Source of the DNA: Prevotella sp.
Lineage (GTDB): Bacteria > Bacteroidota > Bacteroidia > Bacteroidales > Bacteroidaceae
Length of the DNA stretch: 64,000 bases
Direction: 5' to 3'
Assembly: GCA_017442825.1 (NCBI GenBank)
Contig: JAFRYZ010000033.1
Span: 62,001 to 126,000, forward strand
Below are positions 7,620 to 55,883 of the stretch, one piece after another. The notes beneath the pieces are model-generated. The model was not told where the DNA came from, did no database searches, and was given only the letters and a program-made list of their open reading frames with translations. Position numbers and translations under genes: made by a program. How positions within the stretch are numbered: position 1 is the first letter of the stretch; the number at the start of each line of letters is the position of its first letter.

Positions 7620-9017
7620 ATGAAAACCATGAAGATAAAGAACATCATCATACTGAGTGTCGCCGCCGTGCTGCTGACTGGCTGTAAGTCGCTCTATGGC
7701 ACGTACGAACGGCCAAAAGATGTGAGAACGGACAGTATTGTCCGCGACCCTGTGACAGGTGTGGGTTATCTGAGCGCTACAGACACAACAGGTTTTGGCA
7801 ATCTGCCGTGGCGCAGCGTTTTTACAGACCCGCAGTTACAGGTTCTGATCAACAAGACGTTAACCAACAATCCAGATTTGTTGAATGCAGCCTTGAACAT
7901 TCATATAGCAGAACAACAGGTGAAGACTGCCAAGTTGGCTTTCCTGCCGCAGGTAGCCTTTTCTCCGCAGGGTACACTGTCGCAGTTTGGAACGGGGGCT
8001 GTGTCGAAAACTTACAGTTTGCCCCTTTCTGCCAGTTGGAATGTAGATTTGTTTGGCAACCTGCTCAGTCAGAAACGTGCTGCACAAGTAGCCTTGCTTG
8101 CAGCACGTGACTATCAGCTGGCAGTGAAAACCAATCTGATATGTAATGTTGCCAACCTCTACTACACGTTGCTGATGCTCGACCGCCAGTTGGAGATTAT
8201 CACAAACATGGAAGGGTTGACAAAAGAGACGTGGGACATGATGAAACTGCAGATGCAGTTGGGACGCGCACGTTCAACCAGCGTGCAGAGTGCGGAGGCT
8301 TCGTACTACAATGTGCAGACGCAAGGTGTAGATCTCAAACGTCAGATTCGGGAAGTGGAGAATTCCTTGTCCTTGCTGATGGGAGAACCTGCACACGGAA
8401 TCCCGCGTGGAAAACTGGAGAGCCAGAATCTGCCTTCCGATTTCTCCGGTGGCTTAGGCATTGGCAGGTTGGCAAACCGTCCGGATGTCCATGCCAACGA
8501 AATGGCGTTGGCTCAGTGCTTCTATGATGTTGAAACCGCCCGTAGCCGCTTCTATCCGAGTTTGAACATCTCATCGACAGGTGCTTTTACCAACAATGCC
8601 GGTGCTATAGTCAATCCGGGAAAGATTCTTTGGAATCTTGTTGGTCAGTTGACGCAACCCATCTTTATGAAGGGTCAGCTGACGGCAGGACTCCGTGTGG
8701 CTGAAGACCAATATAAGAAAGCGTACAACAACTGGCAGAACTCACTACTTTCTGCCGGCAGTGAAGTGAGCAAGGCTTTGGTGCAGTATAATTCCAGTGA
8801 CGAGATGAGTAAGCTGGAACAACAGCAGATTGACGTGCTGCGTAAGAATGTTGAACATACGATTTTGTTGTACAAACAGTCGGGCAGCAGTTATCTTGAG
8901 GTTATCACCGCGCAGCAACAACTGTTGAACGCCGAGATTTCGAAAGTTCAGGACGACTTCTCGAAGATGCAGGCTGTCGTCAGCCTTTACTATGCACTGG
9001 GAGGGGGAGTGAAGTAA
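7620..9017 (+). CDS. TolC/OprM-type outer-membrane efflux lipoprotein
   Basis: 465 residues. The signal peptide ends in lipobox LTGC (MKTMKIKNIIILSVAAVLLTGC), as in OprM/NodT-family factors. Two repeated outer-membrane-factor halves follow. The first has LPWRSVFTDPQLQVLI and NNPDLLNAALNI, and the second has RLANRPDVHANEMALAQ with coiled-coil helices. It forms the trimeric outer-membrane exit duct for the adjacent pump. Only two bases separate it from the pump stop codon, indicating translational coupling. Confidence 0.93.
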   Translation: MKTMKIKNIIILSVAAVLLTGCKSLYGTYERPKDVRTDSIVRDPVTGVGYLSATDTTGFGNLPWRSVFTDPQLQVLINKTLTNNPDLLNAALNIHIAEQQVKTAKLAFLPQVAFSPQGTLSQFGTGAVSKTYSLPLSASWNVDLFGNLLSQKRAAQVALLAARDYQLAVKTNLICNVANLYYTLLMLDRQLEIITNMEGLTKETWDMMKLQMQLGRARSTSVQSAEASYYNVQTQGVDLKRQIREVENSLSLLMGEPAHGIPRGKLESQNLPSDFSGGLGIGRLANRPDVHANEMALAQCFYDVETARSRFYPSLNISSTGAFTNNAGAIVNPGKILWNLVGQLTQPIFMKGQLTAGLRVAEDQYKKAYNNWQNSLLSAGSEVSKALVQYNSSDEMSKLEQQQIDVLRKNVEHTILLYKQSGSSYLEVITAQQQLLNAEISKVQDDFSKMQAVVSLYYALGGGVK

Positions 9018-9055
9018 TTGATAATTGATAATTGACAATTGACAATTGATAATTT
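9015..9055 (+). repeat. AT-rich TTGATAATTGACAA repeat
   Basis: The gap between the efflux operon and the acyltransferase gene is filled by tandem degenerate units of about 10 bp (AATTGATAATTGACAATTG). The same family recurs at 9828, 14206, 22634 and 51677. Confidence 0.75.
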
Positions 9056-9829
9056 ATGGCAAGTGAGATTAGTCCAAGAGCAGAAGTGTCGCCAAAAGCA
9101 AAAATCGGTGATAACTGCAAGATTTATCCATTCGTCTATATCGAAGACGATGTCGTCATCGGCGATAATTGTATCATACATCCTTTTGTAAGCATCCTCA
9201 ACGGGGCGCGAATAGGTAAAGGAAATCATATACACCAAGGGTCGGTTATTTCAGCTTTACCGCAAGACTTCGAATTCCAAGGAGATAAAACAGAGGTTGT
9301 CATCGGTAAAAACAATGTCATCCGCGAGAATGTGGTCATCAACAGAGGTACGCACGCTGGCGGGCAGACCGTTATCGGCAATAAAAACTACCTGATGGAG
9401 GGTGTCCACATCCTTCACGATACTAAAATTGGAAACCAATGCGCATTTGGCTTCGGTACGAAGATAGCTGGTGACTGTGAGATTGGCAACGGAGTCGTTT
9501 TCACAGCTGCTGTGCTGCAGCTGCCAAACACACGTGTGGGCGATTGTGCACTGGTGACATCAGGCTCAATCTTTAACAAAGACATACCTCCTTATGTGAT
9601 TGTCGGCAACAATCCCGTCTCTTTCAATGGTGTAAATGCCCCAATGTGTAAGGCTATTGGCATTGAGGAAAAGGTGGTTAAGCATATTGCTAATGCTTAT
9701 CGTCTGGTGTTCCGCGGGAAGGTGAGCCTTTTCGATGCAACGCTTCAGATTAAAGAACAGGTTCCCGATGGTCCTGAGATACAGAAGATTATCGACTTCC
9801 TGTCAACTTCGAAGAAAGGAGTGATTTGA
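9056..9829 (+). CDS. lpxA: LpxA-like acyl-ACP--UDP-GlcNAc O-acyltransferase
   Basis: 257 residues. Hexapeptide repeats of a left-handed beta helix run through residues 1-190 (ISPRAEVSPKAKIGDNCKIY and onward), then a helical C-terminal domain (IGIEEKVVKHIANAYRLVFRG) as in LpxA. The pair H118/H121 in VHILHD matches the LpxA catalytic HxxHD, H121 corresponding to the catalytic His. HIHQGSVISALPQDFEFQG matches the LpxA block that ends in PQD. It would start lipid A synthesis by acylating UDP-GlcNAc in the cytoplasm. It is not next to lpxB, lpxC, lpxD or fabZ, so it could be a paralogue with another acceptor. The symbol is given for the family. Confidence 0.8.
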   Translation: MASEISPRAEVSPKAKIGDNCKIYPFVYIEDDVVIGDNCIIHPFVSILNGARIGKGNHIHQGSVISALPQDFEFQGDKTEVVIGKNNVIRENVVINRGTHAGGQTVIGNKNYLMEGVHILHDTKIGNQCAFGFGTKIAGDCEIGNGVVFTAAVLQLPNTRVGDCALVTSGSIFNKDIPPYVIVGNNPVSFNGVNAPMCKAIGIEEKVVKHIANAYRLVFRGKVSLFDATLQIKEQVPDGPEIQKIIDFLSTSKKGVI

Positions 9830-9908
9830 TAATTGACAATTGCTGCGCTCTTGGCGTGAACATCAATAATTGATAATTGTCAATAGTCAATTATCAATTA
9901 TCAATTAG
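9828..9908 (+). repeat. AT-rich repeat pair between convergent genes
   Basis: TTGATAATTGACAATTG, a short GC-richer core (CTGCGCTCTTGGCG), then the family in both orientations (CAATAATTGATAATTG, TCAATTATCAATTATC). It overlaps the stop codon of the radical SAM gene on the minus strand. The inverted halves could fold but there is no clear U-run terminator. Confidence 0.7.
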
Positions 9909-10672
9909 TAGGACGCTGTGCAGGGTATTCCGGCAGCAATCACACGGTCGCGGATGGCATCAAGCTGTTCGCGACTGGCTTTTTTTAATCCTTTGACGGG
10001 AGTCTCGCGGTCAATGGTGTAGATCATCACCTCTTCCGGCTGTATGTCTGTGACGGCTTTCAGCCACGGTCCCACATACTCCTCGCCGGTGTTGTCTACG
10101 CCTTCGCCCTGCATGAACATCGTCTGGATGATGACATGCCCGTTGAAAGCCTTCAGTTGCGTGATGATCTGGTTGACATCATAGCTCGCCGACAGCGGGC
10201 GGTCCACCCTTCGGATGTAGTCCATGTCCACCGTGTCTAACTTCTGGATGTTGTTGTCCACCTTCAGGAGTGCCCGGCAGACGTCTGCCTTGTGCGTCAT
10301 GGTGGCGTTGCTCAGCACCGATACCTTTGCCTTCGGGCAGTATTCGTCGCGCAGCCGTATCGTGTCGTCGATGATGCCCGGAAATGACGGGTGTGCCGTC
10401 GGCTCGCCGTTGCCGGCAAAGGTCAGCACGTCGGGTGTCTCTCCGCTTTGGCTCATCTCCTTCAGTTTCGCTTCCAACGCCGTTGCCACCTCCTCACGGG
10501 TGGGGCGGGGCAGGGTGGTGCGGTGCTGACCGTTCAGTCCGCACTCACAGTAGATGCAGTCGAAGGTACATACTTTGCCGTCGGCAGGCATCAGGTTGAT
10601 GCCCAACGAAAGACCGAGCCTGCGGCTATGAACAGGTCCGAAAATAGGAGAAGGGTAGATAATCGTACTCAT
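9905..10672 (-). CDS. Radical SAM protein
   Basis: 255 residues. The [4Fe-4S] cysteine triad CxxxCxxC is at residues 35-42 (CTFDCIYC), after the FGPVHSRRLGLSLGINL block typical of the COG0731-like radical SAM group. The SAM-binding GNGEPT motif is in VLTFAGNGEPTAHP. No extra ferredoxin or auxiliary cluster domain is visible. The specific reaction is unknown to me; members are often annotated only as radical SAM or Fe-S oxidoreductase. The -7 box lies only about 8 bases before the ATG, so the transcript has almost no leader. Codon use resembles its neighbours. Confidence 0.85.
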   Translation of the reverse strand: MSTIIYPSPIFGPVHSRRLGLSLGINLMPADGKVCTFDCIYCECGLNGQHRTTLPRPTREEVATALEAKLKEMSQSGETPDVLTFAGNGEPTAHPSFPGIIDDTIRLRDEYCPKAKVSVLSNATMTHKADVCRALLKVDNNIQKLDTVDMDYIRRVDRPLSASYDVNQIITQLKAFNGHVIIQTMFMQGEGVDNTGEEYVGPWLKAVTDIQPEEVMIYTIDRETPVKGLKKASREQLDAIRDRVIAAGIPCTASY

Positions 10673-12872: not shown

Positions 12873-13138
12873 AAATTCTCCCTGTATATATACTTTTTAA
12901 CCACAGATGGCACAGATTCACAGAGTTATTTAACAACGGAAAACACTCTAAGGATTTTTTCGAAAGAAATTAGCATAATTACTATAATTCAACCCAGAAA
13001 ATTTCTGGGTAATTTCTTGAAATTTCTTTCTTTGATCCTCTCCATCATCCCTTTAGGGATGATTTTCCGTTTTTGCCTCCGTGTGAGAAAAATAAAAAGA
13101 TGATGACTTTCTAATCGTAGGTTGCATGGATTAGAAGA
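12873..13138. other. Gene-free AT-rich stretch
   Basis: No convincing gene is present. It contains CCACAGATGGCACAGATTCACAGAG, a motif resembling dispersed CACAGATT repeats of Bacteroidales, and two small inverted repeats (CCCAGAAAATTTCTGGG and ATCATCCCTTTAGGGATGAT). The open frame across it is low-complexity and lacks family character. Confidence 0.5.
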
Positions 13139-13287
13139 AGGTACTTTCGCTCGACAAAGCAAAAAAAAGCAAGATTTCTTTTGCTTTGTCCTCACTTAAT
13201 CGTACCTCTGGCTTCGCCGAAGGTAGGTTGCGCCTCAGAAAAACTCAAATAAATTTGGTTTTTCGTTCGGCTTGCACTACCTTTGCA
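13139..13287 (+). repeat. Promoter-hairpin repeat (two modules) upstream of ftsX
   Basis: Module 1 reads GGTACTTTCGCTCG, a palindrome (GACAAAGCAAAA / TTTTGCTTTGTC) and CCTCACTTAATCGTACCT. A more degenerate second module ends in the ftsX -7 box TACCTTTGC (13278-13286). The same module precedes typA, fucP, the NRPS gene, cysE and the 53108 gene in the same relative orientation. Confidence 0.75.
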
Positions 13288-13317: not shown

Positions 13318-14205
13318 ATGGGAAAAAAGAAAAAACGTAATCAAGAACGTAGCCGTTTTGGCTTACAAAAGATAACATTGTGTATCAGTACCGCTATGGT
13401 GCTGATTCTTTTGGGAATGGTGGTTCTGACGGTGCAGACAGGACGCAATCTGTCGCAGTATGTCAAGGAGAACTTGATGGTGACGCTGGTTCTTTCACCG
13501 GAAACTTCACCTCAAGATGCACAACACTTATGCAAACGTGTGAAGATGCTTCCCTATGTGAACGGATTGAACTATATCAGTAAGGAAGACGTGCGCAAAG
13601 ACCTTTCTAAGGAATTGGGAACCGACCCCACGGAGTTTGTGGGTGGTGAGAATCCCTTGTCGGCATCAATAGAATTGAGACTGAAGGCAGACTATGCCAA
13701 CAACGACTCTATCAAATGGATTTCTGAACGATTGAAAACCATGCACGGTGTGGCGGAGATAGATTACAGGAAAGACTTGATAGACACAGTGAACTTCCGC
13801 CTGCGCCAGATTAGTTTGGTGCTGTTGGTGTTGGCTGCACTGCTGGCTATCGTTTCTTTCTCACTGATCAACAACTCTATCCGTCTTGCCATATATGCAC
13901 GTCGTTTCTCGATACATACGATGAAACTTGTCGGTGCATCGTGGGGTTTTATTCGTGCCCCATTTATCCGTTCGGCTATCGGTCAGGGACTGCTTTCGGC
14001 TGTCTTGGCATTGTTGGTCTTGGGCGGAGGCATTTATGCTTTATACCGTTATGAACCGGAACTGATGGCAGTCATCAACTGGCAGGTACTTGCTCTGACT
14101 GCAGGTGCTGTGCTGCTGTTTGGTCTGCTGATTACAACGTTCTGCGCCTGGCTGTCTGTGAACAAGTTCCTCAAGATGAAGGCTGGAGAACTGTATAAGA
14201 TATAA
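13318..14205 (+). CDS. ftsX: Cell-division ABC-type permease FtsX
   Basis: 295 residues from ATG 13318, chosen because it follows the promoter box at 13278 and the in-frame upstream extension is repeat-encoded. There is a basic N-terminus (MGKKKKRNQERSRFG), one helix (ITLCISTAMVLILLGMVVL), an extracytoplasmic domain of about 110 residues with ENLMVTLVLSPETSPQDAQ, and three C-terminal helices with SIHTMKLVGASWGFIRAPF, the typical FtsX block. With the ATPase FtsE, not in this window, it activates peptidoglycan hydrolysis at the septum. It heads a run of envelope genes (DUF3098, uppP). Confidence 0.92.
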   Translation: MGKKKKRNQERSRFGLQKITLCISTAMVLILLGMVVLTVQTGRNLSQYVKENLMVTLVLSPETSPQDAQHLCKRVKMLPYVNGLNYISKEDVRKDLSKELGTDPTEFVGGENPLSASIELRLKADYANNDSIKWISERLKTMHGVAEIDYRKDLIDTVNFRLRQISLVLLVLAALLAIVSFSLINNSIRLAIYARRFSIHTMKLVGASWGFIRAPFIRSAIGQGLLSAVLALLVLGGGIYALYRYEPELMAVINWQVLALTAGAVLLFGLLITTFCAWLSVNKFLKMKAGELYKI

Positions 14206-14325
14206 TTGACAATTGATAATTGACAATTGACAATTCACAATTCATAATTGACAATTCACAATTGATAATTGGCGAAGCCGATACCTCTAAATTCTAAATT
14301 CATAATTCTAAATTTGCAACAGATA
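14206..14325 (+). repeat. AT-rich repeat array after ftsX
   Basis: Tandem degenerate units (ATTGACAATTGATAATTG, CACAATTCATAATTG) fill the gap. They are interrupted by GGCGAAGCCGATACC and continue as AAATTCTAAATTCATAATTC. Confidence 0.75.
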
Positions 14326-14329
14326 TTTT

Positions 14330-14578
14330 ATGGATAAGAGAAATCTTGCATTTGGAAAAATAAACTTTATCCTGCTTGCCATCGGCATGGCAGTGGTTGT
14401 CTTGGGTTTTATCCTGATGAGTGGAGGGGCATCTACGGAACAGGCTTTTGACCCCTCTATCTTCGATGCCCGCCACATTAAAGTGGCTCCCGTGGTAACC
14501 TTTATTGGTTTTGTGTCCATTATCGTTGCCATCGTATATAAACCGAAGGACGAAAGCAAGGAGGAACATGCGAAATGA
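14330..14578 (+). CDS. DUF3098 small membrane protein
   Basis: 82 residues with two hydrophobic helices (INFILLAIGMAVVVLGFILM and VAPVVTFIGFVSIIVAIVY) and a charged C-terminus. LAFGKINF at the start and FDPSIFDARHIKVAPVV between the helices match DUF3098, a Bacteroidetes family found between ftsX and uppP. The ATG of uppP overlaps its stop (ATGA), so the two are coupled. A role in envelope assembly is inferred from gene order only. Confidence 0.85.
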   Translation: MDKRNLAFGKINFILLAIGMAVVVLGFILMSGGASTEQAFDPSIFDARHIKVAPVVTFIGFVSIIVAIVYKPKDESKEEHAK

Positions 14579-19785: not shown

Positions 19786-19941
19786 GGATAAGGTTCTATC
19801 GCTCGACAATGAAAAGAAAAACAAGTTTTCCTTTTGCTTTGTCCTCGCTTAATCGTACCTTTGAAGAAAGTTCGCTGCGTCTTAACAATAAAAATAAAAA
19901 AGTTTTTGTTTTGTATTGTCTTCGACTTGCAGTACCTTTGC
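19786..19941 (+). repeat. Promoter-hairpin repeat (two modules) upstream of typA
   Basis: Module 1 runs from TTCTATCGCTCGACAATG through a palindromic A/T-rich stem to TTGTCCTCGCTTAATCGTACCTTTG. Module 2 is degenerate (ACAATAAAAATAAAAAAG and its complement TTTTGTATTGT). It ends in the typA -7 box TACCTTTGC at 19933-19941. Confidence 0.75.
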
Positions 19942-25016: not shown

Positions 25017-27686
25017 ATGAAAAGAATGAATACATTGAAGAAATGCTGGCCCGACGTGCTGGTTATCGTATTATTTGCTGCAATATCCTTTGCTTATTTT
25101 TTCGTTCCAGTCACCCAGGGAAAGATTCTTTACCGGCATGACTCTTCTGCCGGACGTGGTGCCGGGCAGGAAGTGGCAGAATACCGCGAGCAGACGGGTG
25201 AAACCTCTCGTTGGACGAATGCTCTTTTCGGAGGAATGCCTACCTACCAGACGTCACCTTCGTATCAGTCGACCAATGCGTTGTCGAAGGTTATGGATGC
25301 CTATCATTTGTGGTTACCAGAAAATGTATGGTACCTGTTTGTATATCTGTTAGGCTTCTACATCATGTTACGCGCCTTCGACTTCCGACAGGCGTTAGCG
25401 GCGTTGGGTTCTGTCATCTGGGCCTTCTCCAGCTATTTCCTTATTATTATTGCTGCCGGACACATCTGGAAAGTGATGGCGTTGGCATACCTCCCGCCGA
25501 TGATAGCAGGTGTGGTCTTGTCATACAAAGGTAAATATATGTGGGGCTTCCTGCTGACCGCCATCTTTACGGCTTTTGAGGTGAAAGCCAATCACGTGCA
25601 GATGACCTACTACTACCTGTTTATCGTTTTCTTCTTGGTGATAGCCTATCTGGTACAAGCTATTCGCGAAAAGCAGTTGGCACGCTTCTTCAAAGCCAGT
25701 GCCGTTTGTGCTGTGGCAGCTTTGATAGGTGTAGCCATCAATATCTCCAACCTCTATCATACCTGGGAATACCAGAATGAAACCATGCGTGGCAAGAGTG
25801 AGTTGGTGAAGAAGAATACTGCCAACCAAACCAGCAGCGGATTGGAGCGCGACTATATTACCCAATGGAGTTATGGCATCGGCGAAACATGGACGTTGTT
25901 GGTGCCGAACACGAAAGGTGGTGCTTCAGTACCGATGATTTACGATAAGACCGTTCAGAAAGAAGGCGACCCGATGTACGAGCCCATCTATCAGCAACTG
26001 GGACAGTATTGGGGCGAACAGCCGATGACCAGCGGTCCCGTATATGTCGGAGCATTTGTGCTGATGCTGTTTATCCTTAGTCTCTTCGTGGTGAAAGGAC
26101 CTGTGAAATGGGCTTTGCTCGCAGCCACCATCTTGTCTGTCCTGCTCTCATGGGGGCGTAACTTCATGTGGTTCACCGACCTGTTTATAGACTATATGCC
26201 GATGTATGCCAAGTTCCGAACAGTAGCATCCATTCTCGTCATAGCCGAGTTTACTATTCCCTTGCTTGCCATACTAGGCTTGCGCGAGTGTGTAAAGGTT
26301 GTTGAGGGAGAGAAAGCACAGAGTGTTCAGAATAATCAGAATACTCAGAGTACTCCGAATACTCCGAGTCTTCTCACGATGAAGCAACTGAAACGTTATA
26401 CCTTGATAAGTTTCTTGCTGACCGCAGGTATAGCAGCTCTCTTTGCCTTGATGCCAGGCGTGTTCTTCGACTTCGTCTCTTCTGCCGAACGGCAGGCGTT
26501 GTCGCAGATTCCAGCAGACCAGTTGAATCCGTTGCTTGACAACCTGACGACGATTCGTAAGCATATCTTCACGGCAGACTGTTGGCGTACTGTCTTTGTC
26601 ATCGTACTTGGAACCGTTTTCCTCTTCTTGTATTTCATGAAGAAGTTGAAAGCAGAATACATGGCCGTAGCGCTGTTCGTCCTTTGTTTGGTTGATTTAT
26701 GGCAGGTTGACAAGCGCTACCTCAACGATGCCATGTTTGTACCCAAGAGCGAGCGTGAGGCTCCTATCGAAATGACGAAGGCAGATGAAATCATCCTGAA
26801 AGACAAGTCGCTCGACTATCGTGTGCTGAACTTCGCCAGCAATACCTTCAACGAGAACGAAACCTCTTTCTACCATAAGAGCATAGGTGGTTATCATGCC
26901 GCTAAGTTGCGCCGTTATCAGGAACTCATAGAAGCCCATATCGTTCCTGAGATGCAGAAGACCATGCAGGCGGTGGCAGAGGCTGGCGGCAATATGGAGG
27001 CGGTGGCAGGCGACAGTATCTATCCCGTGCTGAATATGCTCAACACCAAGTACTTCATTATGCCGTTGCAAGGAGGAGAAACCGTTCCCCTGCTCAATCC
27101 CTATGCCTATGGCAACGCCTGGATGGTGGATAAGGTGACCTTCGTTGACAATGCCAACGACGAATTGGAGGCTTTGGGTAAAATTAACCTGCGCCATGAG
27201 GCTGTGGCGGATAAGAAGTTTATGGAAAGCCTAAGCCTCACCCCCGCCCCCTCTCCAAAGGGAGAGGGGAGTAGTCAGAGCTCTCAGGATGCTCAGAGTA
27301 ATCAGAATACTCCGAATATTCAGAGTAATCCGAATACTCTGAGTAATCAGAATACTCAGAGTTCAATAGGCACCGTAGTCTTAAAGCAATATGCTCCGAA
27401 CCAACTGACTTATCAAGTTGATGCTGAAAAAGACGGCGTCATCGTATTCTCAGAAATCTACTATCCGGGTTGGTCAGCAACCATCGATGGGCAGGAAGTG
27501 GAACTAGGACGAGTTGACTATGTACTGCGTGCCCTTCCTGTGAAGGCAGGCAAGCACCAGATTGTGCTGACCTTCCAACCGAAGAGCATTACCATTACAG
27601 AGACCATTGCCTATGTCGCTTTCGGTATTCTGATACTTGCCATCCTCATCGTGGCTTTCTTGACGTGGAAAAAGAAAAAAGGTTGA
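25017..27686 (+). CDS. YfhO-family multi-spanning membrane protein
   Basis: 889 residues with about a dozen hydrophobic helices and a large C-terminal extracytoplasmic beta domain (VFSEIYYPGWSATIDGQEVEL), the YfhO (GT-C-like) layout. Early features HDSSAGRGAGQEVAEY and LFGGMPTYQTSP are typical of Bacteroidetes members. Firmicute homologues function in lipid- or teichoic-acid glycosylation; the substrate here is unknown. Two low-complexity inserts encoded by dispersed repeats interrupt it: about residues 436-452 (Gln/Asn/Ser/Thr-rich) and about 742-783 (starting LTPAPSPKGEGSS, then Gln/Asn-rich). Both lie in hydrophilic loops. Confidence 0.85.
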   Translation: MKRMNTLKKCWPDVLVIVLFAAISFAYFFVPVTQGKILYRHDSSAGRGAGQEVAEYREQTGETSRWTNALFGGMPTYQTSPSYQSTNALSKVMDAYHLWLPENVWYLFVYLLGFYIMLRAFDFRQALAALGSVIWAFSSYFLIIIAAGHIWKVMALAYLPPMIAGVVLSYKGKYMWGFLLTAIFTAFEVKANHVQMTYYYLFIVFFLVIAYLVQAIREKQLARFFKASAVCAVAALIGVAINISNLYHTWEYQNETMRGKSELVKKNTANQTSSGLERDYITQWSYGIGETWTLLVPNTKGGASVPMIYDKTVQKEGDPMYEPIYQQLGQYWGEQPMTSGPVYVGAFVLMLFILSLFVVKGPVKWALLAATILSVLLSWGRNFMWFTDLFIDYMPMYAKFRTVASILVIAEFTIPLLAILGLRECVKVVEGEKAQSVQNNQNTQSTPNTPSLLTMKQLKRYTLISFLLTAGIAALFALMPGVFFDFVSSAERQALSQIPADQLNPLLDNLTTIRKHIFTADCWRTVFVIVLGTVFLFLYFMKKLKAEYMAVALFVLCLVDLWQVDKRYLNDAMFVPKSEREAPIEMTKADEIILKDKSLDYRVLNFASNTFNENETSFYHKSIGGYHAAKLRRYQELIEAHIVPEMQKTMQAVAEAGGNMEAVAGDSIYPVLNMLNTKYFIMPLQGGETVPLLNPYAYGNAWMVDKVTFVDNANDELEALGKINLRHEAVADKKFMESLSLTPAPSPKGEGSSQSSQDAQSNQNTPNIQSNPNTLSNQNTQSSIGTVVLKQYAPNQLTYQVDAEKDGVIVFSEIYYPGWSATIDGQEVELGRVDYVLRALPVKAGKHQIVLTFQPKSITITETIAYVAFGILILAILIVAFLTWKKKKG
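26321..26371 (+). repeat. 9-bp array inside the yfhO-like gene (first)
   Basis: Units such as CAGAATAAT, CAGAATACT, CAGAGTACT and CCGAATACT repeat every 9 bases, in frame, encoding Gln/Asn/Thr/Ser triplets. Confidence 0.8.
27238..27365 (+). repeat. Composite C/G palindrome plus 9-bp array inside the yfhO-like gene
   Basis: A C/G-rich palindrome (CCCTCTCCAAAGGGAGAGGG) is followed directly by about ten 9-bp units (CAGAGTAAT, CAGAATACT, CCGAATATT). The whole composite is translated in frame. It joins two otherwise separate repeat families. Confidence 0.8.
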
Positions 27687-29116: not shown

Positions 29117-29238
29117 TGTGCAAAGATACGATTAAGCGAGAGAAAAGCCAAATTTATTTGAGCTTTTCCGAGCGTAAGTATCTACGACTACGTCAAAGAT
29201 GCGATTAAGCGAGAGAAAAGCCAAATTTATTTTGCGGA
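29117..29238 (-). repeat. Promoter-hairpin repeat (two modules) upstream of fucP
   Basis: Read toward fucP: a partial module, then TACTTACGCTCG, a palindrome (GAAAAGCTCAAAT / ATTTGGCTTTTC), CTCTCGCTTAATCG and the -7 box TATCTTTGC. Same orientation rule as the other copies. Confidence 0.75.
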
Positions 29239-29264
29239 TTTGGGATACTCCCTTTCGTTCTTCG

Positions 29265-29398
29265 TTTGCAAAAGGATAGGTTTTGGGCTGCAAGTACGGC
29301 TCAATTGCCTTGCAAAAGGATAGGTTTCGCCCTCCAAAAGGGGCTCTTTTGCCCTGCAAAAGGATAGGTTTTGCAACGCGAAAGTAATGCTCTTGCGA
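29265..29398 (+). repeat. 44-bp direct repeat, three copies
   Basis: TGCAAAAGGATAGGTTT begins at 29267, 29311 and 29355, a period of exactly 44 bases. The shared core is about 16 bases and the rest of each unit is less conserved. It lies in the fucP-fkp intergenic region. Confidence 0.75.
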
Positions 29399-44200: not shown

Positions 44201-45390
44201 TTGGGGAGTTCCATCATCTGTTGCAGACAAGTAGCCACCGCCTGCGCCACCATTTGTAAGGTTGCCTGCTTGACGAGTGCTTCGCTGGCATCTGTACGTA
44301 TTTCGTAGTTGCCATCCGAAGAGTAGATGGTACAGTTGAGATCGTTACAAGCCTCTTTATGATCCAGTTGTGTCCCTTTGTACGGAATGTCGTCCAGCCA
44401 GCACACTTCCTCAATCTCCCTGCCTTGAAAGCCGAAGGTGATGGCAGGTTTCGTCTGCGTGTCGCGACAGAAATGAGTGGCAGGGTAAACGTTGTTTTTC
44501 AGCGCCGTTCGTTGTTCCTGCTGTAACCTCTGGATGAAGTCCATGACCAACATATCCCCGTCCGTATCAGCCAAGAGTGGAAGCGAGCGCACAAACATGC
44601 CGAAAGAACGTCGCATGCGTGCGTCCGTTCGTCCGTGAGTGAGCGTGAAGAATGCCACCCGTTGCTGTCGCGTCAACTTAGACAATACGATGCTGAAGGC
44701 AGCCGTAAAGACAATACTGACTTTCGTTTCATGTAATTTACACCATTCGTCGATGGGAGTCCTTGCCATCGTGCAAGAAGCCATCAGATGGCGTCCCCAA
44801 GGCGTGGTCAGTCCCCTGTGAGGCGTGGCAAATGTTGTCAGTTGCGTTCCCCGGAAATGCTCCAGCATGTATTCACGCGCCACTTGATAAGCCTTCGTTT
44901 GGAACGCCGCCTCTTCCGCCTCCGCTGCCTCCGTCATCTCCATCTGTCGTTCTTCGTCTTCCTCCGTCATCATGCGGACGATGCTGGTGCCGTCGGCTAT
45001 GGTGTGGTGGTAGTCTGTGAGCAGCAGCAGGCGTTGTGGCGTCTCTATGATTTCGATGCGGCAGAGCGGAAACGGTCCGAACGGTTGAAAAGGTTTCACA
45101 AAGTCGTTCGCCATATATGCCTCCGCCTCCGTTTCCGTCATCCGCCTTGTCGGGATGGGAATCGTCATGTGGGGGTCGCAATATTGGCGAATCGCCATTC
45201 CGATTTTGACAAATCGGGTGTGGGTTGCTTTGTGACGGGTGATGCGTTTGGCAGCCTCCTGCAAACGCTTCAAACCTACCGACTTGGGAAAGGAAATCAC
45301 CGAAGGCAGGTTCCAAGCAGTTGTCTCAGGGTGCATCTGCCACCCCATGAACACGCTCATTTGCGATTGCAATAGTGGATACGTCTTCAT
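41200..45390 (-). CDS. Single-module NRPS, condensation-adenylation-thiolation-reductase
   Basis: 1396 residues from ATG 45390; the in-frame extension upstream is promoter-repeat sequence. Domains: condensation (1 to about 410) with active site HHTIADG at 128-134; adenylation (about 430-975) with A3 MFTSGSTGKPKGVMITH near 590, GRTDQQFKRNGFRIEPEE and terminal NANGKTDDK; thiolation with phosphopantetheine site DLGGTSLS (Ser1013); terminal reductase (about 1075-1396) with NADPH loop LTGATGFLG and YLQSK. By alignment with GrsA in my head, the A-domain pocket reads about D-A-E-T-C-G-T-V-D-K, for which I assign no amino acid. The layout predicts N-acylation of one amino acid and reductive release as an aldehyde or alcohol. 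No phosphopantetheinyl transferase, transporter or immunity gene is adjacent. Two tandem repeats expand the A domain. Confidence 0.92.
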   Translation of the reverse strand: MKTYPLLQSQMSVFMGWQMHPETTAWNLPSVISFPKSVGLKRLQEAAKRITRHKATHTRFVKIGMAIRQYCDPHMTIPIPTRRMTETEAEAYMANDFVKPFQPFGPFPLCRIEIIETPQRLLLLTDYHHTIADGTSIVRMMTEEDEERQMEMTEAAEAEEAAFQTKAYQVAREYMLEHFRGTQLTTFATPHRGLTTPWGRHLMASCTMARTPIDEWCKLHETKVSIVFTAAFSIVLSKLTRQQRVAFFTLTHGRTDARMRRSFGMFVRSLPLLADTDGDMLVMDFIQRLQQEQRTALKNNVYPATHFCRDTQTKPAITFGFQGREIEEVCWLDDIPYKGTQLDHKEACNDLNCTIYSSDGNYEIRTDASEALVKQATLQMVAQAVATCLQQMMELPNGRLQDICLIDDNEQQRLITLGQGERTSPQREEEGDEPTWTDLFRQQAALTPDNIAVVAEDGSLTYRELDQLSSLYAERLDKQRKAEEPNGQGKAEEHNGEGKTKEPNGQGNRNSPFVCLTTTRTKEWMVQVIGVLKAGLAFVPFDAEWPEARRRQIFETTLTSPSSSTSAHSINETSFRTNLAYMMFTSGSTGKPKGVMITHRGLFNLTRFITRRWNLTNLSRISCHAPLSFDASIEDLFPVLTVGGTLYIVPDNIRMNLAAMAQYLKDNGITGGCYTTRLGVMLAEHHQLQVEYLCLGGEKLNLPLISAQGTPAFSANFRVINTYGPTECTVDATYYVVPTTDAIDSHDFPTTNTMGSTVGRSAEATSIPIGRPLDNMLVLVVDQHGQLLPQGATGELWIAGPQVAAGYWNEPELTNRMFTSCRFCKGKVYHTGDLVKWNEEGLLEFVGRTDQQFKRNGFRIEPEEIASALLQLEGITQAVVKLVTLADKQAVSPTDKQAVSPTDKQTVSTSKKELLCAYFTAIKKMDADEIRRKLKKLLPDYLIPDILMQLTEIPLNANGKTDDKRLPEPTIPERLYVRPANEREQLLCRTFAKVLQTDQVGATDNFFDLGGTSLSVMLLLGELEKAGIHLTYQEVFNNPTPRSLSTPRTPAPSCPPRPVCCDSVANRLSPYKEEWGAAPFILTGATGFLGIHILHEFINHDAQKVCCLVRDKDGIKAEERLRNRIRTYFGEESSMLSLLGSRIQVVCGDITSVLSFNRLPFPPLSPSTDTAVKVSHAPSTLIHCAADVRYFAQGTAVEDTNIKGTENVIRFCLATGTRLIHISTTSLNVLHQEQQGRKLPAQLNTTMLEQLGITAQGLLSLPYLQSKRAAEELVLRAANEQLLDAHIIRIGSLMPRLSDGMFQVNAQDNLFMRLLNVIQQTGTCAASLADYPVVCAPVDVVAQAIVKGCYEVTPPIKWMDATPRPLREIIAERNGGDKRLRLVSDEEFLSLTQHST
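42671..42742 (-). repeat. 24-bp tandem repeat, three copies, in the NRPS A domain
   Basis: Three in-frame 24-bp units encode (T)DKQAVSP-type octapeptides between the A8-like region and the A10 motif. Units one and two are nearly identical; the third is more divergent. An 8-codon unit can change copy number without breaking the frame. Confidence 0.9.
43871..43951 (-). repeat. 27-bp tandem repeat, three copies, in the NRPS A domain
   Basis: Three 27-bp units encode KAEEPNGQG, KAEEHNGEG and KTKEPNGQG near the start of the A domain, a charged loop not expected in the family. Confidence 0.9.
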
Positions 45391-45395
45391 CGTAT

Positions 45396-45622
45396 TTGCG
45401 ACAAAGGTACGATTAAGCGAGGACAAAACAAAGAACTTGTTCTTTTTTTGTCGAGCGGAAGTACCTTGGACGAAGTCAAAGTATCGATTAAGCGAGGACA
45501 AAACAAAGAACTTGTTCTTTTTTTTGTCGAGCGGAAGTACCTTGGACGAAGTCAAAGTATCGATTAAGCGAGGATAAAACAAAATTTATTTTAGCATTTC
45601 CGAGTGAGAGTACCTTATTAAA
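45396..45622 (-). repeat. Promoter-hairpin repeat (three modules) upstream of the NRPS gene
   Basis: Two nearly identical modules of about 75 bp, each with TACTTCCGCTCG, palindrome GACAAAA..GAAC / GTTC..TTTTGTC and CCTCGCTTAATCG, follow one divergent module with a GGAAATGC/ATTTTG-type stem. The gene-proximal module ends in the -7 box TACCTTTG 14-20 bases before the NRPS start. Confidence 0.85.
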
Positions 45623-45644
45623 AGATAATAATTTCATAGAAAAC

Positions 45645-45677
45645 TTGGCATAAGAGTGGAATTTTATCTATATTTGC
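45645..45677 (+). promoter_or_regulatory. Promoter of rmuC
   Basis: TTGG (45645-45648), 20 bases, TATATTTGC (45669-45677). The ATG at 45682 is only four bases further on, so the transcript is probably leaderless or the start is at 45688. Confidence 0.7.
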
Positions 45678-45681
45678 AGGC

Positions 45682-47037
45682 ATGGAAATGGCATTGTATA
45701 TTGTATTAGGACTCGTTTGCGGTGCAGCCGTAGTGTATGTCATGCTGTCGGGTAAACTGTCGAAAGTGCGGCAAGAGATTGCCGTGGCACAGACACAACT
45801 GGCTTCTGAGCGCGAAAATGCGGAGAAGCAGTTGCGTAGTGAGCAGGAACATGCCGCCGAGCAGCAGAAACAGCTACAGGAACGTCATGCCAAGGAACTG
45901 GCAGACGTTCAGGCGCATGCCGAAGAGTTGCGGGCAGAGATGGTGAAGCAACAGGAGGCGAAGAACAAGCTGGTGCAAGAGGAAATCCGCAACATGGCAG
46001 TACAGATGCTCAACGAGAGCAAGAGCGAGTTGAACAAGGAGAACCGTGAACGCTTGGACACCCTGCTGACGCCCCTCAAGGAACGTATAGAAGCCTTCCA
46101 GAAGACCGTCAGCGACAACAGCAAGGAGGGAGCCCAGAACAAGACTGAGATAAAGACCGCCTTTGAAGAGGCGATGAAGAAACTTCACGACGAGCAGGAA
46201 CAGACCGTCCGCAGGATGAAAGAAGAGCAGGAGCGTACGGTTCGCGAGTTGAAAGAGCAGACCGAGCGTATCGGTAACGATGCCGCCTCGCTTACGCAGG
46301 CGCTCAAGGGCGATTCGAAGATGCAAGGCGACTGGGGCGAGATGATTCTCGACAAGACGTTGGAAGATTGCGGACTGGTCAAGGACGAGCAGTATTTCCT
46401 GCAACAGACGTTCCGCGACGACGACGGCAACCTGTTCCGTCCCGATGCCGTCATCGAGTTTCCCAATCATGAGACGGCAGTCATAGACTCCAAGGTGTCG
46501 CTCACAGCCTATCAAGAAGCCACGAAGGCAGAGACGCTCGAGGAGCGCGAGCGGCTGTTGAAGGAGCATGTTGCCAGCGTGCGCACACACATCAACGAAC
46601 TCTCAGCCAAGAACTACGAGAAGCTGGTGCCCAACTGCATCGGCTACGTGCTCATGTTCATCCCCTACGAGAGCGGCTATTCGGCAGCCCTGAAGACCGA
46701 CTCCTCGCTGTTGCAGTATGCCTATAAGAAGCACATCATCATGCTCTCGCCGTCGAACCTGCTCATGGCACTTCAGCTGATACATACCATGTGGCAGAAC
46801 TTCCGCATGAACAAGAATGTGGAGGATATTCTGCGCCAGTCGAACGACCTGTACGACAAGTTCGTCATCTTTACCGAGTCGTTCCTCAAGATAGAGGGCG
46901 ACATGCAGAAGATGCAGCGCGACTTCGAGGCGGCTAAAGGTCAACTGCGCGACGGCAAGGGTAACATCATCCGCCGCCTGGACAACATGAAGACGCTCGG
47001 CATCACGCCGAAGAAACAAATCCCGGACAGCCTATAG
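45682..47037 (+). CDS. rmuC: RmuC-family DNA recombination protein
   Basis: 451 residues. An N-terminal membrane helix (MALYIVLGLVCGAAVVYVML) is followed by a long coiled coil rich in Gln/Glu/Lys (about 30-190) and the RmuC nuclease-like core. The core has GDWGEMILDKTLEDCGLVKD, FRPDAVIEFP, VIDSKVSL and VLMFIPYESGYSAAL, the PD-(D/E)XK-type blocks of the family. RmuC limits recombination at inverted repeats in E. coli, which is notable in a repeat-rich genome. Monocistronic. Confidence 0.93.
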   Translation: MEMALYIVLGLVCGAAVVYVMLSGKLSKVRQEIAVAQTQLASERENAEKQLRSEQEHAAEQQKQLQERHAKELADVQAHAEELRAEMVKQQEAKNKLVQEEIRNMAVQMLNESKSELNKENRERLDTLLTPLKERIEAFQKTVSDNSKEGAQNKTEIKTAFEEAMKKLHDEQEQTVRRMKEEQERTVRELKEQTERIGNDAASLTQALKGDSKMQGDWGEMILDKTLEDCGLVKDEQYFLQQTFRDDDGNLFRPDAVIEFPNHETAVIDSKVSLTAYQEATKAETLEERERLLKEHVASVRTHINELSAKNYEKLVPNCIGYVLMFIPYESGYSAALKTDSSLLQYAYKKHIIMLSPSNLLMALQLIHTMWQNFRMNKNVEDILRQSNDLYDKFVIFTESFLKIEGDMQKMQRDFEAAKGQLRDGKGNIIRRLDNMKTLGITPKKQIPDSL

Positions 47038-51584: not shown

Positions 51585-51676
51585 GCAAAGGTACGATTAA
51601 GCGAGGGAAAAGCAAAATTTATTTTAGCTTTTCCGAGCGTGAGTACTTTCGACCGAAGGTCAAAGGTACGATAAAT
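51585..51676 (-). repeat. Promoter-hairpin repeat upstream of cysE
   Basis: Read toward cysE: TTTATCGTACCTTTGACC, GTACTCACGCTCGG, palindrome GGAAAAGC..GCTTTTCC, CCTCGCTTAATCG and the -7 box TACCTTTGC. It is almost identical, in inverted orientation, to 52987-53087 on the other side of the insertion sequence. Confidence 0.85.
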
Positions 51677-51736
51677 AATTCATAATTCATAATTCACAAT
51701 TCATAATTCTTTGCAAGCAAAGCGCTGCGCGATTAC
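51677..51736 (+). repeat. AT-rich repeat next to the insertion sequence
   Basis: AATTCATAATTCATAATTC and similar units, then GCAAGCAAAGCGCTGCGCGA and TTAC immediately before the IS end. The AAAGCGCT core resembles 22664-22683. Confidence 0.6.
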
Positions 51737-52986: not shown

Positions 52987-53087
52987 ATTATTTATCGTAC
53001 CTTTGACCTTCTGTCGAAAGTACTCACGCTCGGAAAAGCTAAAATAAATTTTGCTTTTCCCTCGCTTAATCGTACCTTTGCAAAACA
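52987..53087 (+). repeat. Promoter-hairpin repeat upstream of the nucleotidyltransferase gene
   Basis: ATTATTTATCGTACCTTTGACC, then GTACTCACGCTCGG, GGAAAAGC..GCTTTTCC palindrome, CCTCGCTTAATCG and -7 box TACCTTTGC (ending near 53083), 20-25 bases before ATG 53108. It differs from the inverted copy at 51585-51676 at about one position in 90. Confidence 0.85.
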
Positions 53088-53107: not shown

Positions 53108-53884
53108 ATGAGATATGCTATTATTGCAGCAGGTGAGGGTTCGCGGCTGACACAAGAGGGTGTGGCGTTGCCCAAACCGCTGGTGGAAGTGGGTGGCGAG
53201 AGTCTGATACTCAGGCTGTTGCGCATCTTCATGGTTCACGGGGCTACGGAGATATGCGTCATCTGCAACGACCGCACCCCGCTGGTGGAGGCGCGCCTGA
53301 AGGAGATTCAGACTGCCGGCATCAGTCTGTCGCCGTCGGCGGAGAAGACGACGGTGCCCCTGCGCTTTGTCGTCAAATCGACGCCCAGCTCCATGCACAG
53401 CTTCTACGAGCTGGCAGACTGGCTCGACGGCGACGAGCCTTTCGTGCTGACGACGGTGGATACCGTGTTCCGTGAAACGGAGTTTGCCGAATATCTTGCC
53501 GCCTTCAAAAGCTGTCTGGCTGCCGGCAACGACGGACTGATGGGGGTCACGACGTATGTGGATGACGAGAAACCGCTCTACGTCGAGACGGACCGCCGGC
53601 AACGCATCACGGCTTTCGCGGATGCTGTCGGGGGGACAACGAAACGCATAGAAACCGCGGATGAGGGGAGCGGGACGTACGTCTCTGCCGGCATCTACGG
53701 ACTGACGCCGAAGGCCCTGCAGACGCTGCGGACGTGTGTGGCGCGGGGAGAGAGCCGCATGCGCAATTTCCAGCGTGCCTTGTTGCGCGACGGCTTGCAG
53801 CTGCAGGCATGGGCGTTCTCGAAGGTGCTGGACGTGGACCACCAGAGCGACATCGCAAAGGCTGAGGAGTTCTTGAAAGAATAA
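53108..53884 (+). CDS. Sugar-phosphate-type nucleotidyltransferase (inositol-lipid operon)
   Basis: 258 residues from ATG 53108. The nucleotide-binding signature AIIAAGEGSRLTQEG is followed by ALPKPLVEVGGESLI and the metal-site region TTVDTVF, as in GlmU/RmlA-type pyrophosphorylases. The nucleotide and sugar are not readable from the sequence. It is the first gene of a run with an ATP-grasp protein, a CDP-alcohol phosphatidyltransferase, a HAD protein and myo-inositol-phosphate synthase. A nucleotidyltransferase also occurs in the B. thetaiotaomicron inositol-lipid cluster (BT_1522-BT_1526 as I recall). A CTP:inositol-phosphate cytidylyltransferase role is possible but unproven. Confidence 0.82.
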   Translation: MRYAIIAAGEGSRLTQEGVALPKPLVEVGGESLILRLLRIFMVHGATEICVICNDRTPLVEARLKEIQTAGISLSPSAEKTTVPLRFVVKSTPSSMHSFYELADWLDGDEPFVLTTVDTVFRETEFAEYLAAFKSCLAAGNDGLMGVTTYVDDEKPLYVETDRRQRITAFADAVGGTTKRIETADEGSGTYVSAGIYGLTPKALQTLRTCVARGESRMRNFQRALLRDGLQLQAWAFSKVLDVDHQSDIAKAEEFLKE

Positions 53885-53963
53885 TTAGAATAATCGGAAT
53901 AATCAGAGTAATCGGAGAACTCGGAGTAATCGGAGTAATCAGAGTAATCGGAGTAATCAGAAT
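53885..53963 (+). repeat. 9-bp array before the ATP-grasp gene
   Basis: About eight units of CGGAATAAT, CAGAGTAAT, CGGAGAACT and CGGAGTAAT run up to the ATG at 53965. They are the same family as the arrays inside the yfhO-like gene. Confidence 0.85.
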
Positions 53964-53964
53964 C

Positions 53965-54936
53965 ATGATAGTCATAGGCATAGCACGCGAAGAACGGTTC
54001 TCGCCCAACTCGGTAGAGAAGGACAGGGCTATCATGGTTGCCGTCATGGCGCAGATGCAGGGACGCACCCTCTCCGAGGAAGATGTGAAGAGGCACGGCA
54101 CTATGCTCTCCGAGGCTGATATGAAGAAGGGCGGCATCGTCCTTTCCGAGGCGGACATCCTTGCGGCGGCTGCCGAAGCCGAAAGGCATGGCGAAGAATA
54201 CCACCTGCCCGATGTCGACCTCTACCTGTCGATGGCGCGTGGCGAACGGCTGTTGGCGTTGCTCAGGGAGAAAGAGGCACAAGGCAGGGTGGTGATGAAC
54301 CCTACGGAGGGCGTGGAAGCCTGTCGCCGCAGCCGTGTGGAGGCGTTGATGCGCCGCCACCATCTGCCCCTGCCGCCCCAGGAGAGTGGCGAAGGCTATT
54401 GGCTGAAGCGCGGCGACGGAGCTGCCCAGGAGGCTGCCGACGTGGTGTTCTGCGAAGACCGGCAGGCGTTGGCTGTCGCGGAGCAGGCTTTCCGCGAGCG
54501 CGGCATCGCCGACATGGTGGTGCAGGCACATGTGCGCGGCGACCTGGTGAAGTTCTATGGCGTGGAGCCTGCGGGCTTCTTCCGCTATTTCTATCCGGGC
54601 GACGACGGCGACAGCAAGTTTGGCGACGAAGAGCGCAACGGCAAGCCCCGCCACTACTTCTTCCAGCGGCAGCAGCTGCAAGCAACGGCAGAGCTCCTCT
54701 CGCGGCTGGCGAAGGTACCCGTCTACGGTGGCGACGCCATCGTCAAGGCCGACGGCGACTTCGTGCTGATAGACTTCAACGACTGGCCCAGCTTCTCGCG
54801 ATGCAAGGACGAGGCGGCAAGGGCGATAGCTTTCGGCGGAAATTGGAGTAATCGGAATAATCGGAATAATCGGAATAATCGGAGTAATCGGAATAATCGG
54901 AGTAATCGGAATAATCAGAATAATCGGAAAATATGA
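53965..54936 (+). CDS. ATP-grasp-like protein of the inositol-lipid operon
   Basis: 323 residues. The middle and C-terminal parts have an ATP-grasp look: NPTEGVEACRRSRVEALMRR followed by LPLPP, MVVQAHVRGDLVKFYGV (nucleotide-contacting strand), and GGDAIVKADGDFVLIDFNDW with acidic metal ligands (D, D, N) as in RimK/ITPK-like ligases. It would join a carboxylate to a nucleophile, or phosphorylate, using ATP; the substrate is unknown. Residues 34-69 are three 12-residue repeats (RTLSEEDVKRHG, TMLSEADMKKGG, IVLSEADILAAA). The last about 30 residues (NRNNRNNRS-type) are translated from a 9-bp array and overlap the next gene's start by 4 bases. It is an uncharacterised partner of the surrounding lipid genes. 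Confidence 0.75.
   Translation: MIVIGIAREERFSPNSVEKDRAIMVAVMAQMQGRTLSEEDVKRHGTMLSEADMKKGGIVLSEADILAAAAEAERHGEEYHLPDVDLYLSMARGERLLALLREKEAQGRVVMNPTEGVEACRRSRVEALMRRHHLPLPPQESGEGYWLKRGDGAAQEAADVVFCEDRQALAVAEQAFRERGIADMVVQAHVRGDLVKFYGVEPAGFFRYFYPGDDGDSKFGDEERNGKPRHYFFQRQQLQATAELLSRLAKVPVYGGDAIVKADGDFVLIDFNDWPSFSRCKDEAARAIAFGGNWSNRNNRNNRNNRSNRNNRSNRNNQNNRKI
54064..54171 (+). repeat. 36-bp internal repeat, three copies
   Basis: Three 36-bp units within the ATP-grasp gene encode the 12-residue repeats around LSEEDV/LSEADM/LSEADI. Identity is higher in CTCTCCGAGG(A/C) than elsewhere. Confidence 0.8.
54842..54932 (+). repeat. 9-bp array at the 3' end of the ATP-grasp gene
   Basis: About ten units (AGTAATCGG, AATAATCGG) are translated in frame as Ser-Asn-Arg and Asn-Asn-Arg triplets. 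The array ends at the ATG of the phosphatidyltransferase gene. Confidence 0.9.
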
Positions 54937-55883
54937 ACAATAACGATTGGCGTAAGGGTAGGAGCTTCGGCGAACTGTTGAAGGCCTCCTTCAAGTCGGA
55001 CGACACAGAAGAGTGGTTGGACGTGCATTTCACGCGCCCCATTGGTTTGTTCTTCGCCCTGGGCTGGATCAGGCTGGGCGTCCACCCGAATGTGGTCACC
55101 ATCCTCTCCATTTTCCTCGGCGCAGCAGCCGGCGTGATGTTCTATTTCGACGACCTGTGGCACAACCTCTGTGGCGTGCTGTTGCTGATGTTTGCCAACT
55201 TCTGCGACTCCACCGACGGACAGATGGCGCGCCTCACGGGACAGAAGACGCTCATCGGGCGTATGCTCGACGGCTTTGCCGGCGACGTGTGGTTCTTCTT
55301 CATCTACTGTGCCATTTGTCTGCGCCTGATGCCCCAGCAGATACCCGGTCTGACGATGAACTGGGGAGTATGGATATGGTTGTTGGGCATCGTTGCCGGC
55401 TTCCTTTGCCATGTGCCCCAGGCATCGCTTGCCGACTACTACCGGCAGATTCACCTGCTGTTCCTTCTGGGCAATGAAGGGTCGGAGCTGGACACCTATG
55501 CCGAGCAGCATCGCATCTGCGAACAGCTGCCACGCAAGGGGGCTCTGCTGGAGCGTGTCTTCCACGGTAACTACCAAAACTATTGCAAGAGCCAAGAGCG
55601 GCGAACGCCTGAGTTTCAGCGTTTTTATGTGCGAGTGAAAGAACGGTTTTCGGGTGTTGAAAACCTGCCTGCCGACCTGCGCCAACGTTTCTTGCAAGGC
55701 AGTCGTCCGTTGATGCCCATCACCAACATCCTCTCGTTCAACACCCGTGCCATCGTCATCTATGCCACTTGCCTCTTGAACTGTCCGTGGATGCTCTTCC
55801 TGGTGGACATCATGGTGTTCAACACGCTGTACATATACATGCACACCAAGCACGAAAGATTGTGCAAGAGTTTAGAGTTTTAA
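54933..55883 (+). CDS. CDP-alcohol phosphatidyltransferase, likely phosphatidylinositol-phosphate synthase
   Basis: 316 residues, five or six helices. The family motif D..DG..AR........G...D is present as DSTDGQMARLTGQKTLIGRM with D92, D95 and D113. The final Asp is D118 (LDGFAGD), one residue further from D113 than in the D(x)3D consensus. It would join a CDP-activated lipid to inositol phosphate, or a CDP-inositol to an acceptor, at the membrane. The gene two downstream makes inositol phosphate, which supports a PIP synthase role as described for B. thetaiotaomicron. Start chosen at the ATG overlapping the previous stop by 4 bases. Confidence 0.85.
   Translation: MNNNDWRKGRSFGELLKASFKSDDTEEWLDVHFTRPIGLFFALGWIRLGVHPNVVTILSIFLGAAAGVMFYFDDLWHNLCGVLLLMFANFCDSTDGQMARLTGQKTLIGRMLDGFAGDVWFFFIYCAICLRLMPQQIPGLTMNWGVWIWLLGIVAGFLCHVPQASLADYYRQIHLLFLLGNEGSELDTYAEQHRICEQLPRKGALLERVFHGNYQNYCKSQERRTPEFQRFYVRVKERFSGVENLPADLRQRFLQGSRPLMPITNILSFNTRAIVIYATCLLNCPWMLFLVDIMVFNTLYIYMHTKHERLCKSLEF

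Follow-up and report, generated by a model that had tools for sequence, protein, structure and literature searches.

A dispersed, promoter-carrying palindrome in Prevotella that is probably mobile and REP-like in kind

A short hairpin module with a predicted promoter folded into it recurs upstream of unrelated genes in the 64,000-nucleotide stretch of Prevotella DNA analysed here (the window), elsewhere in the source genome and in related genomes. The module is probably a promoter-carrying mobile palindrome, REP-like in kind, a reading to which we assign a probability of about two in three; by its design it would work like a REP or another small non-autonomous element containing a promoter. 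The proposal of the first-pass annotation that it is a mobile or amplified promoter cassette is well supported by sequence comparison, which reveals many extra copies, genome-specific sub-families, species-specific gene sets and an apparent gain at rpsP, while a shared regulatory hairpin is not favoured and a -7 box at the end of every copy is wrong for upstream copies.

Allowing up to one mismatch, we find nine matches to the core CTCGCTTAATCG in the window, where shuffled sequence would give 0.21, and the module is indeed present, far above chance, at the sites where it had been noted. The source genome (G000, a 2.31 Mb draft of 69 contigs, 79% complete) holds 76 matches against five for the same pattern read backwards, the existence of extra copies having been named beforehand as a test. 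A -7-like box, defined by a permissive pattern, directly follows CTCGCTTAATCG in 68 of the 75 genome matches (out of 76) that were read in context, and the motif of the other flank, ACTTNCGCTCG, is by itself weakly above chance (10 matches with 1 mismatch in the window against 4.2). Cores besides CTCGCTTAATCG exist (CTCGCTTACCCG, CTCGATTTTTCG and GTTCGGCTTGCAC), and the exact core represents one sub-family only, since a covariance model of the module family yields more copies, 10 in the window at E < 1e-4 and at least 96 in the source genome. The same model finds at least 121 and at least 80 copies in two relatives, and four more members of the genus yield few or no copies (0 to 12 each); these counts may be low, as 150 candidates were scored per genome.

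Architecture and covariation of the hairpin

The module has the order GAAGNTAC - TCACGCTCG - inner stem/loop/stem - N - CTCGCTTAATC - GTANCTTTG, with TANCTTTG as its right end. The outer stem is formed by AAGNTAC and the -7 box of the same module. The inner stem contains the -33 TTTG in its 3' arm, and a fixed internal loop, TCACGCTCG opposite CTCGCTTAATC, separates the two stems. The lower end of the inner stem is sharp, as the base immediately before the core is free. The left block complements the -7 box of its own module: a letter of the block is complementary to the third letter of that box in 156 of the 171 copies compared, which places the -7 box within the outer stem. An alternative in which the left block pairs with an upstream -7 box was considered and rejected: among 115 modules with such a box the block fits both boxes in 87, its own only in 18, the upstream one only in 2 and neither in 8.

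The stems covary as the first-pass annotation had claimed, the arms of a copy pairing better with each other than with permuted or shuffled arms. Inner pairs 1-7 average 5.95 Watson-Crick pairs; swapping arms among copies lowers this to 3.95, and the highest mean in 2000 permutations is 4.22. These values come from the 155 copies with a recognisable left block out of 212 non-redundant ones from the source genome and its relatives. The commonest length class of 218 copies provides an aligned class of 65 gapless sequences, in which 92.7% of 1170 cells are paired compared with 82.6% in shuffles, and 108 cells carry double changes, a number that averages 24.6 over the shuffles and never exceeds 19 in slid structures; the shuffles ignore relatedness among copies, which the slid-structure control does not. 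One-sided changes occur in 7 cells, and further pair types are not beyond the shuffles (18 against 15.7; 57 of 500). This alignment also has a one-base bulge, often a T, in the 5' arm (place 7 or 8), facing the -33 region. Folding of eight window copies as DNA gave z scores from -4.17 to +0.47, with weak folding in two of them, the distal NRPS copy and the scored copy at typA.

RNA helices normally pass through G-U pairs, which are nearly missing from the aligned class (7 cells). Over pairs 1-6 of all 218 well-anchored copies, 1198 of 1308 cells are Watson-Crick, 38 are G-T, 22 A-C and 50 other mismatches; these figures come from a stricter count than one over 193 copies with looser left-block anchoring, in which G-T stood at 65 and A-C at 24. 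So few G-U pairs in stems that covary favour a DNA constraint over an RNA one, and the constraint is probably on DNA. An RNA leader structure, that is an attenuator or stability hairpin transcribed from an upstream promoter, we regard as very improbable. Many modules do have a second -7-like box upstream whose transcript would include the hairpin, and G-T is somewhat commoner than A-C over the 218 copies; against this stand the ratio of 7 one-sided to 108 double changes in the aligned class, the low share of G-T over the 218 copies and the frequent breakage of upstream boxes (44 of 77). The neighbouring genes argue in the same direction, as the upstream neighbour of the 47 arrays of the source genome is divergent in 27, co-directional in 17 and not found in 3, so that for most arrays read-through of an upstream gene is no explanation. 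Rfam 15 gave a best score of 22.8 bits against a threshold of 74 over positions 45300-45700 of the window, and on four loci its only matches were to SRP RNA and tRNA, neither over the element.

Arms that are mostly Watson-Crick, together with tandem arrays and with other fold-backs seen by eye upstream of typA in relatives, would also be expected of fold-back mutation, by which unselected palindromes are perfected through template switching or hairpin repair in replication and promoters spread by ordinary repeat recombination. We consider this explanation rather unlikely. The internal loop and, in the aligned class, the one-base bulge stay uncorrected, although perfecting would erase both, and the process does not itself account for dispersal.

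Promoter placement, tandem arrays and the genes served

The Bacteroidota promoter consensus is TTTG, about 19 nt and TAnnTTTG. Among promoter-form copies the box is preceded by TTTG at a distance of 18-21 nt in 234 of 254, compared with 46 of 282 other TAnnTTTG boxes and 16 of 61 non-promoter copies, the latter (described below) including some broken-box copies of promoter arrays. For 40 of 47 arrays the gene-proximal box is no more than 45 nt from the start codon, a distance found for 90 of 273 other TAnnTTTG sites of this DNA; the random placement relative to genes that had been named beforehand as a refuting outcome is therefore not what is seen. These features show a promoter of the Bacteroidota type, as predicted from sequence, to be built into the module, and the gene-proximal copy would drive its gene. 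A divergent promoter within the module was set aside, the other-strand spacing being too short by eye.

The genes preceded by a module include typA, fucP, rpsP, ffh, dxs, mnmA, rlmN, pheS, gpmI, dut and mfd, as well as ftsX, an NRPS-like gene with a terminal reductase domain and a cysE-like gene whose match is under the curated cut-off. Family names were sought for 41 of the 46 module genes of the source genome, plus ftsX, and no shared pathway was seen among the named ones; homologous promoter sequences stand before non-homologous genes of one genome. One further module gene (L044:3154-4038) resembles a class A beta-lactamase, below the curated cut-off.

Table 1. Module copies and associated boxes in the window.
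Feature	Position	Strand	Score or basis	Details
Upstream module, ftsX	13137..13210	+	65.8 bits	box altered to TACCTCTG
Gene-proximal module, ftsX	13219..13285	+	42.7 bits	core GTTCGGCTTGCAC, intact TACCTTTG
Module upstream of typA	19789..19863	+	53.9 bits	weak fold, z -1.04
Gene-proximal variant, typA	about 19864..19940	+	by eye, outside model scoring	core TCTTCGACTTGCAG, box TACCTTTG
Gene-proximal module, fucP	29121..29185	-	90.7 bits	box TATCTTTG
Distal copy, fucP	29194..29255	-	27.7 bits	mainly right half, CATCTTTG after core
Gene-proximal module, NRPS-like/reductase gene	45402..45468	-	65.5 bits	
-7 box of gene-proximal NRPS module	45402-45409	-		intact TACCTTTG
Middle tandem copy, NRPS array	45477..45544	-	45.6 bits	fold z -2.23
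Distal tandem copy, NRPS array	45553..45617	-	53.1 bits	weak fold, z 0.47
Module before serine acetyltransferase (cysE-like) gene	51586..51650	-	covariance model	
Module before nucleotidyltransferase gene at 53108	53016..53080	+	covariance model	

The claim that every copy ends in its -7 box proved wrong for upstream copies, in which the core is followed by TACCTCTG (at 13191), CATCTTTG (at 29213) or ATACTTTG (at 45496 and 45572). In the NRPS array ATACTTTG follows the core of each upstream copy, the middle one keeping its hairpin and core with ATACTTTG in place of an intact box, and the proximal copy alone is intact; in all window arrays with changed upstream boxes the intact copy is the one nearest the gene. 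Beyond what had been annotated, ftsX has a second, gene-proximal copy with the different core GTTCGGCTTGCAC. The modules before the cysE-like and nucleotidyltransferase genes are an identical 65 nt ahead of two genes on opposite strands, and their likeness extends through the upstream box.

Box loss in tandem arrays is general. Of the 77 copies followed 60-115 nt downstream by a further copy, 44 are without an intact TAnnTTTG, and a perfect core is retained by 25 of those; changed letters in upstream tandem copies affect 74 of 539 cells in the box and 48 of 924 in the core, a comparison that favours the core in that a core match at 10 of 12 positions was demanded. A second -7-like box is present upstream in 16 of 31 distal copies with a left block in the source genome and in 49 of 85 elsewhere, so that many units have a -7-like box at both ends, with the outer stem acting as inverted ends. 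The left block is lacking from the distal copy in 17 of 48 arrays in the source genome and 48 of 133 elsewhere, and the right half alone therefore seems to suffice as a promoter. Some modules (L079, L128, L129, L162 and L187) are immediately preceded by another hairpin-like stretch that contains a block close to CTCGCTGCTC.

Distribution, turnover and non-promoter relatives

The motif is found in 55 of 100 genomes of the genus (none with the reversed control), copy number across the 100 running from 0 to 70, in 22 of the 50 most complete genomes of the genus, and in 2 of 198 genomes sampled across the order, the source genome being one of those 2; the genomes are largely drafts. Among the matches listed, records with an exact match are mostly of uncultured Prevotella, Prevotellaceae, Bacteroidaceae and Bacteroidales MAGs, with titles that point to a rumen origin for many. 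A genome of another family of the order (G539; L357, L358 and L360) contains four exact copies of the motif, possibly by transfer or from an older origin.

Sub-families are genome-specific: in G082, 47 of 53 copies share one core, CTCGCTTATTCG, and G117 is mixed. The genes served differ as well, for only 5 of the 46 module genes of the source genome also have a module in G117 (61 module genes) and 2 in G082 (37), and at these shared genes the printed modules differ in arms and core. At rpsP, for which the best 30 of 263 genomes with a match were compared, the source genome included, a TAnnTTTG box and a conserved leader are present in 30 of 30, and the module is present in the source genome only, as a run of three copies that ends on that box and whose distal member is partial. 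The orthologous-promoter comparison that had been suggested thus uncovers a pre-existing box and leader in relatives that lack the module, and the 29 such relatives argue that cassettes arrive at existing promoters. Upstream of typA a sense module is found in 6 of the best 30 of 398 matches, one of them weak and the source genome again among them.

The same comparisons bear on the suggestion that the module is a shared regulatory hairpin for unrelated genes, or more broadly a regulatory DNA element, in which a cruciform or a protein on the constant blocks would control a gene set. Outside the -33 and -7 boxes, conservation extends to the two constant blocks, and upstream copies keep the core while losing the box (the 25 of 44 broken-box copies given above, subject to the same 10-of-12 core threshold). 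Nevertheless, the small overlap between the gene sets of different species speaks against a regulon, the module is absent at most of the rpsP and typA orthologues read, and copies exist that carry no promoter. This explanation is disfavoured and we judge it improbable.

These non-promoter relatives have the form CGCTCG, 24-46 nt, CTC[AG]CTTAATCGC, with the same blocks and a spoiled -7 box, and occur in 113 of 299 genomes (reversed control 0), some of the 113, such as G000, being counted for broken-box copies of promoter arrays. G086 has 41 of them, G078 21 and G060 8. One near-identical type makes up 12 of the 13 copies read in G078, and the same 47 nt recur in all 7 read in G060, a pattern that amplification would produce. 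The arms of the non-promoter copies have a higher G+C content than those of promoter copies (46% against 26%). The positions of 57 non-promoter copies divide into 16 between two genes that are both oriented against the element, 18 overlapping an open frame of at least 90 aa and 23 others. In G078 and G060 many copies sit among 7-bp repeats; such heptamer arrays were set aside as a regular companion of the element, being found at 1 of 155 left flanks and 0 of 155 right flanks of promoter modules.

Relation to known elements and a possible mode of copying

A RAYT/Y1 transposase was set aside as the mover: PF01797 has no match in G000, G117, G031, G034 or G086, several of which are copy-rich, and none of 20 Y1 loci from 18 other genomes has a module. 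By inspection, PF01797 proteins (about 265-300 aa) looked commoner in module-bearing genomes. In the flanks of 9 of the 20 Y1 loci (L336-L355, proteins mostly 262-298 aa) we found GGGACAGG or CCTGTCCC, which recall the GGGGWSAS motifs given at TIRYT genes in a figure legend of PMC3733652. A similar palindrome occurs upstream of typA in L222. Carriage by phage was likewise set aside, one contig of a viral collection having the exact pattern.

No paper describing this element was found in searches of the open-licence literature, and several known systems resemble it in part. Putative mobile promoters are reportedly (Matus-Garcia et al., in 2012) homologous promoter sequences before unrelated genes within a genome; the present module differs in having its promoter inside a covarying hairpin with a fixed internal loop, in forming tandem arrays and in having amplified non-promoter relatives. 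The ends of IS200/IS605-type elements and integron attC sites are structure-recognised single-strand hairpins with bulges and variable stems. The module would resemble both in these respects (attC by eye only), and differs from the IS200/IS605 case in that no Y1 transposase was found in the source genome.

The GTAG- and CGTC-tagged REPs and REPINs, as described in PMC3733652, are like the module in being short dispersed palindromes of uneven copy number between species that form clusters, and in having sub-families with alternative complementary stem letters and, in some, one-base bulges. GTAG and CGTC REPs lie mainly downstream of genes, and some non-promoter relatives of the module lie between genes. 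Neither the GTAG nor the CGTC tag is present in the consensus of the aligned class or in its reverse complement, and no Y1 gene was found in several copy-rich genomes, and with neither tag nor transposase found we do not file the module as a GTAG REP. It differs also in that its promoter form precedes genes and contains a promoter, and in its few G-T pairs, GT pairing being stressed in PMC3733652, which also mentions, without tests, that repeats may act as promoters in some species. The BrickBuilt MITE of Porphyromonas gingivalis is similarly an intergenic repeat of the Bacteroidales with tandem units and promoter activity, which for our module is predicted. By description rather than by sequence comparison it is unlike the module, with a 23-nt minisatellite and bidirectional promoters (PMC4596501).

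If the module is a mobile palindrome, copies would arrive with their right end placed on an existing -7 box, and extra -7 boxes left upstream after arrival would tend to be lost. The fold would persist because some copying step acts on single-stranded DNA in its folded state, with the stems, the internal loop and the bulge as recognition features; fold-back replication by the host may contribute to that step. A bolder version, which we put forward only tentatively, is that the module represents a new kind of mobile element, a complete promoter folded in a single-stranded DNA hairpin, with a putative structure-reading enzyme placing copies of it on -7 boxes already present. Promoters of ordinary genes across the genus would then have been replaced repeatedly, and the fold inherited more than the stem sequence. 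If true, a small DNA element would be exchanging the promoters of housekeeping genes in an abundant group of gut and rumen bacteria, which would provide a natural test of whether what mobile DNA passes on can be a fold, not a sequence, as well as compact promoter parts for bacteria with few genetic tools. Promoter alignments in the genus may, by the same token, mix native and acquired parts.

Other repeats occur in the window. There are 7-bp AT-rich repeat arrays of the TAATTGACAATTG type at 9001-9071, 9853-9909, 14189-14331 and 51669-51711, and 9-bp minisatellites of the TAATCGGAG type, partly within open frames, at 26310-26383, 27255-27383, 53856-54002 and 54814-54951. Three 44-bp repeats (TTGCAAAAGGATAGGTTT...) at 29266-29397 adjoin the fucP modules and are perhaps another promoter-like tandem repeat.
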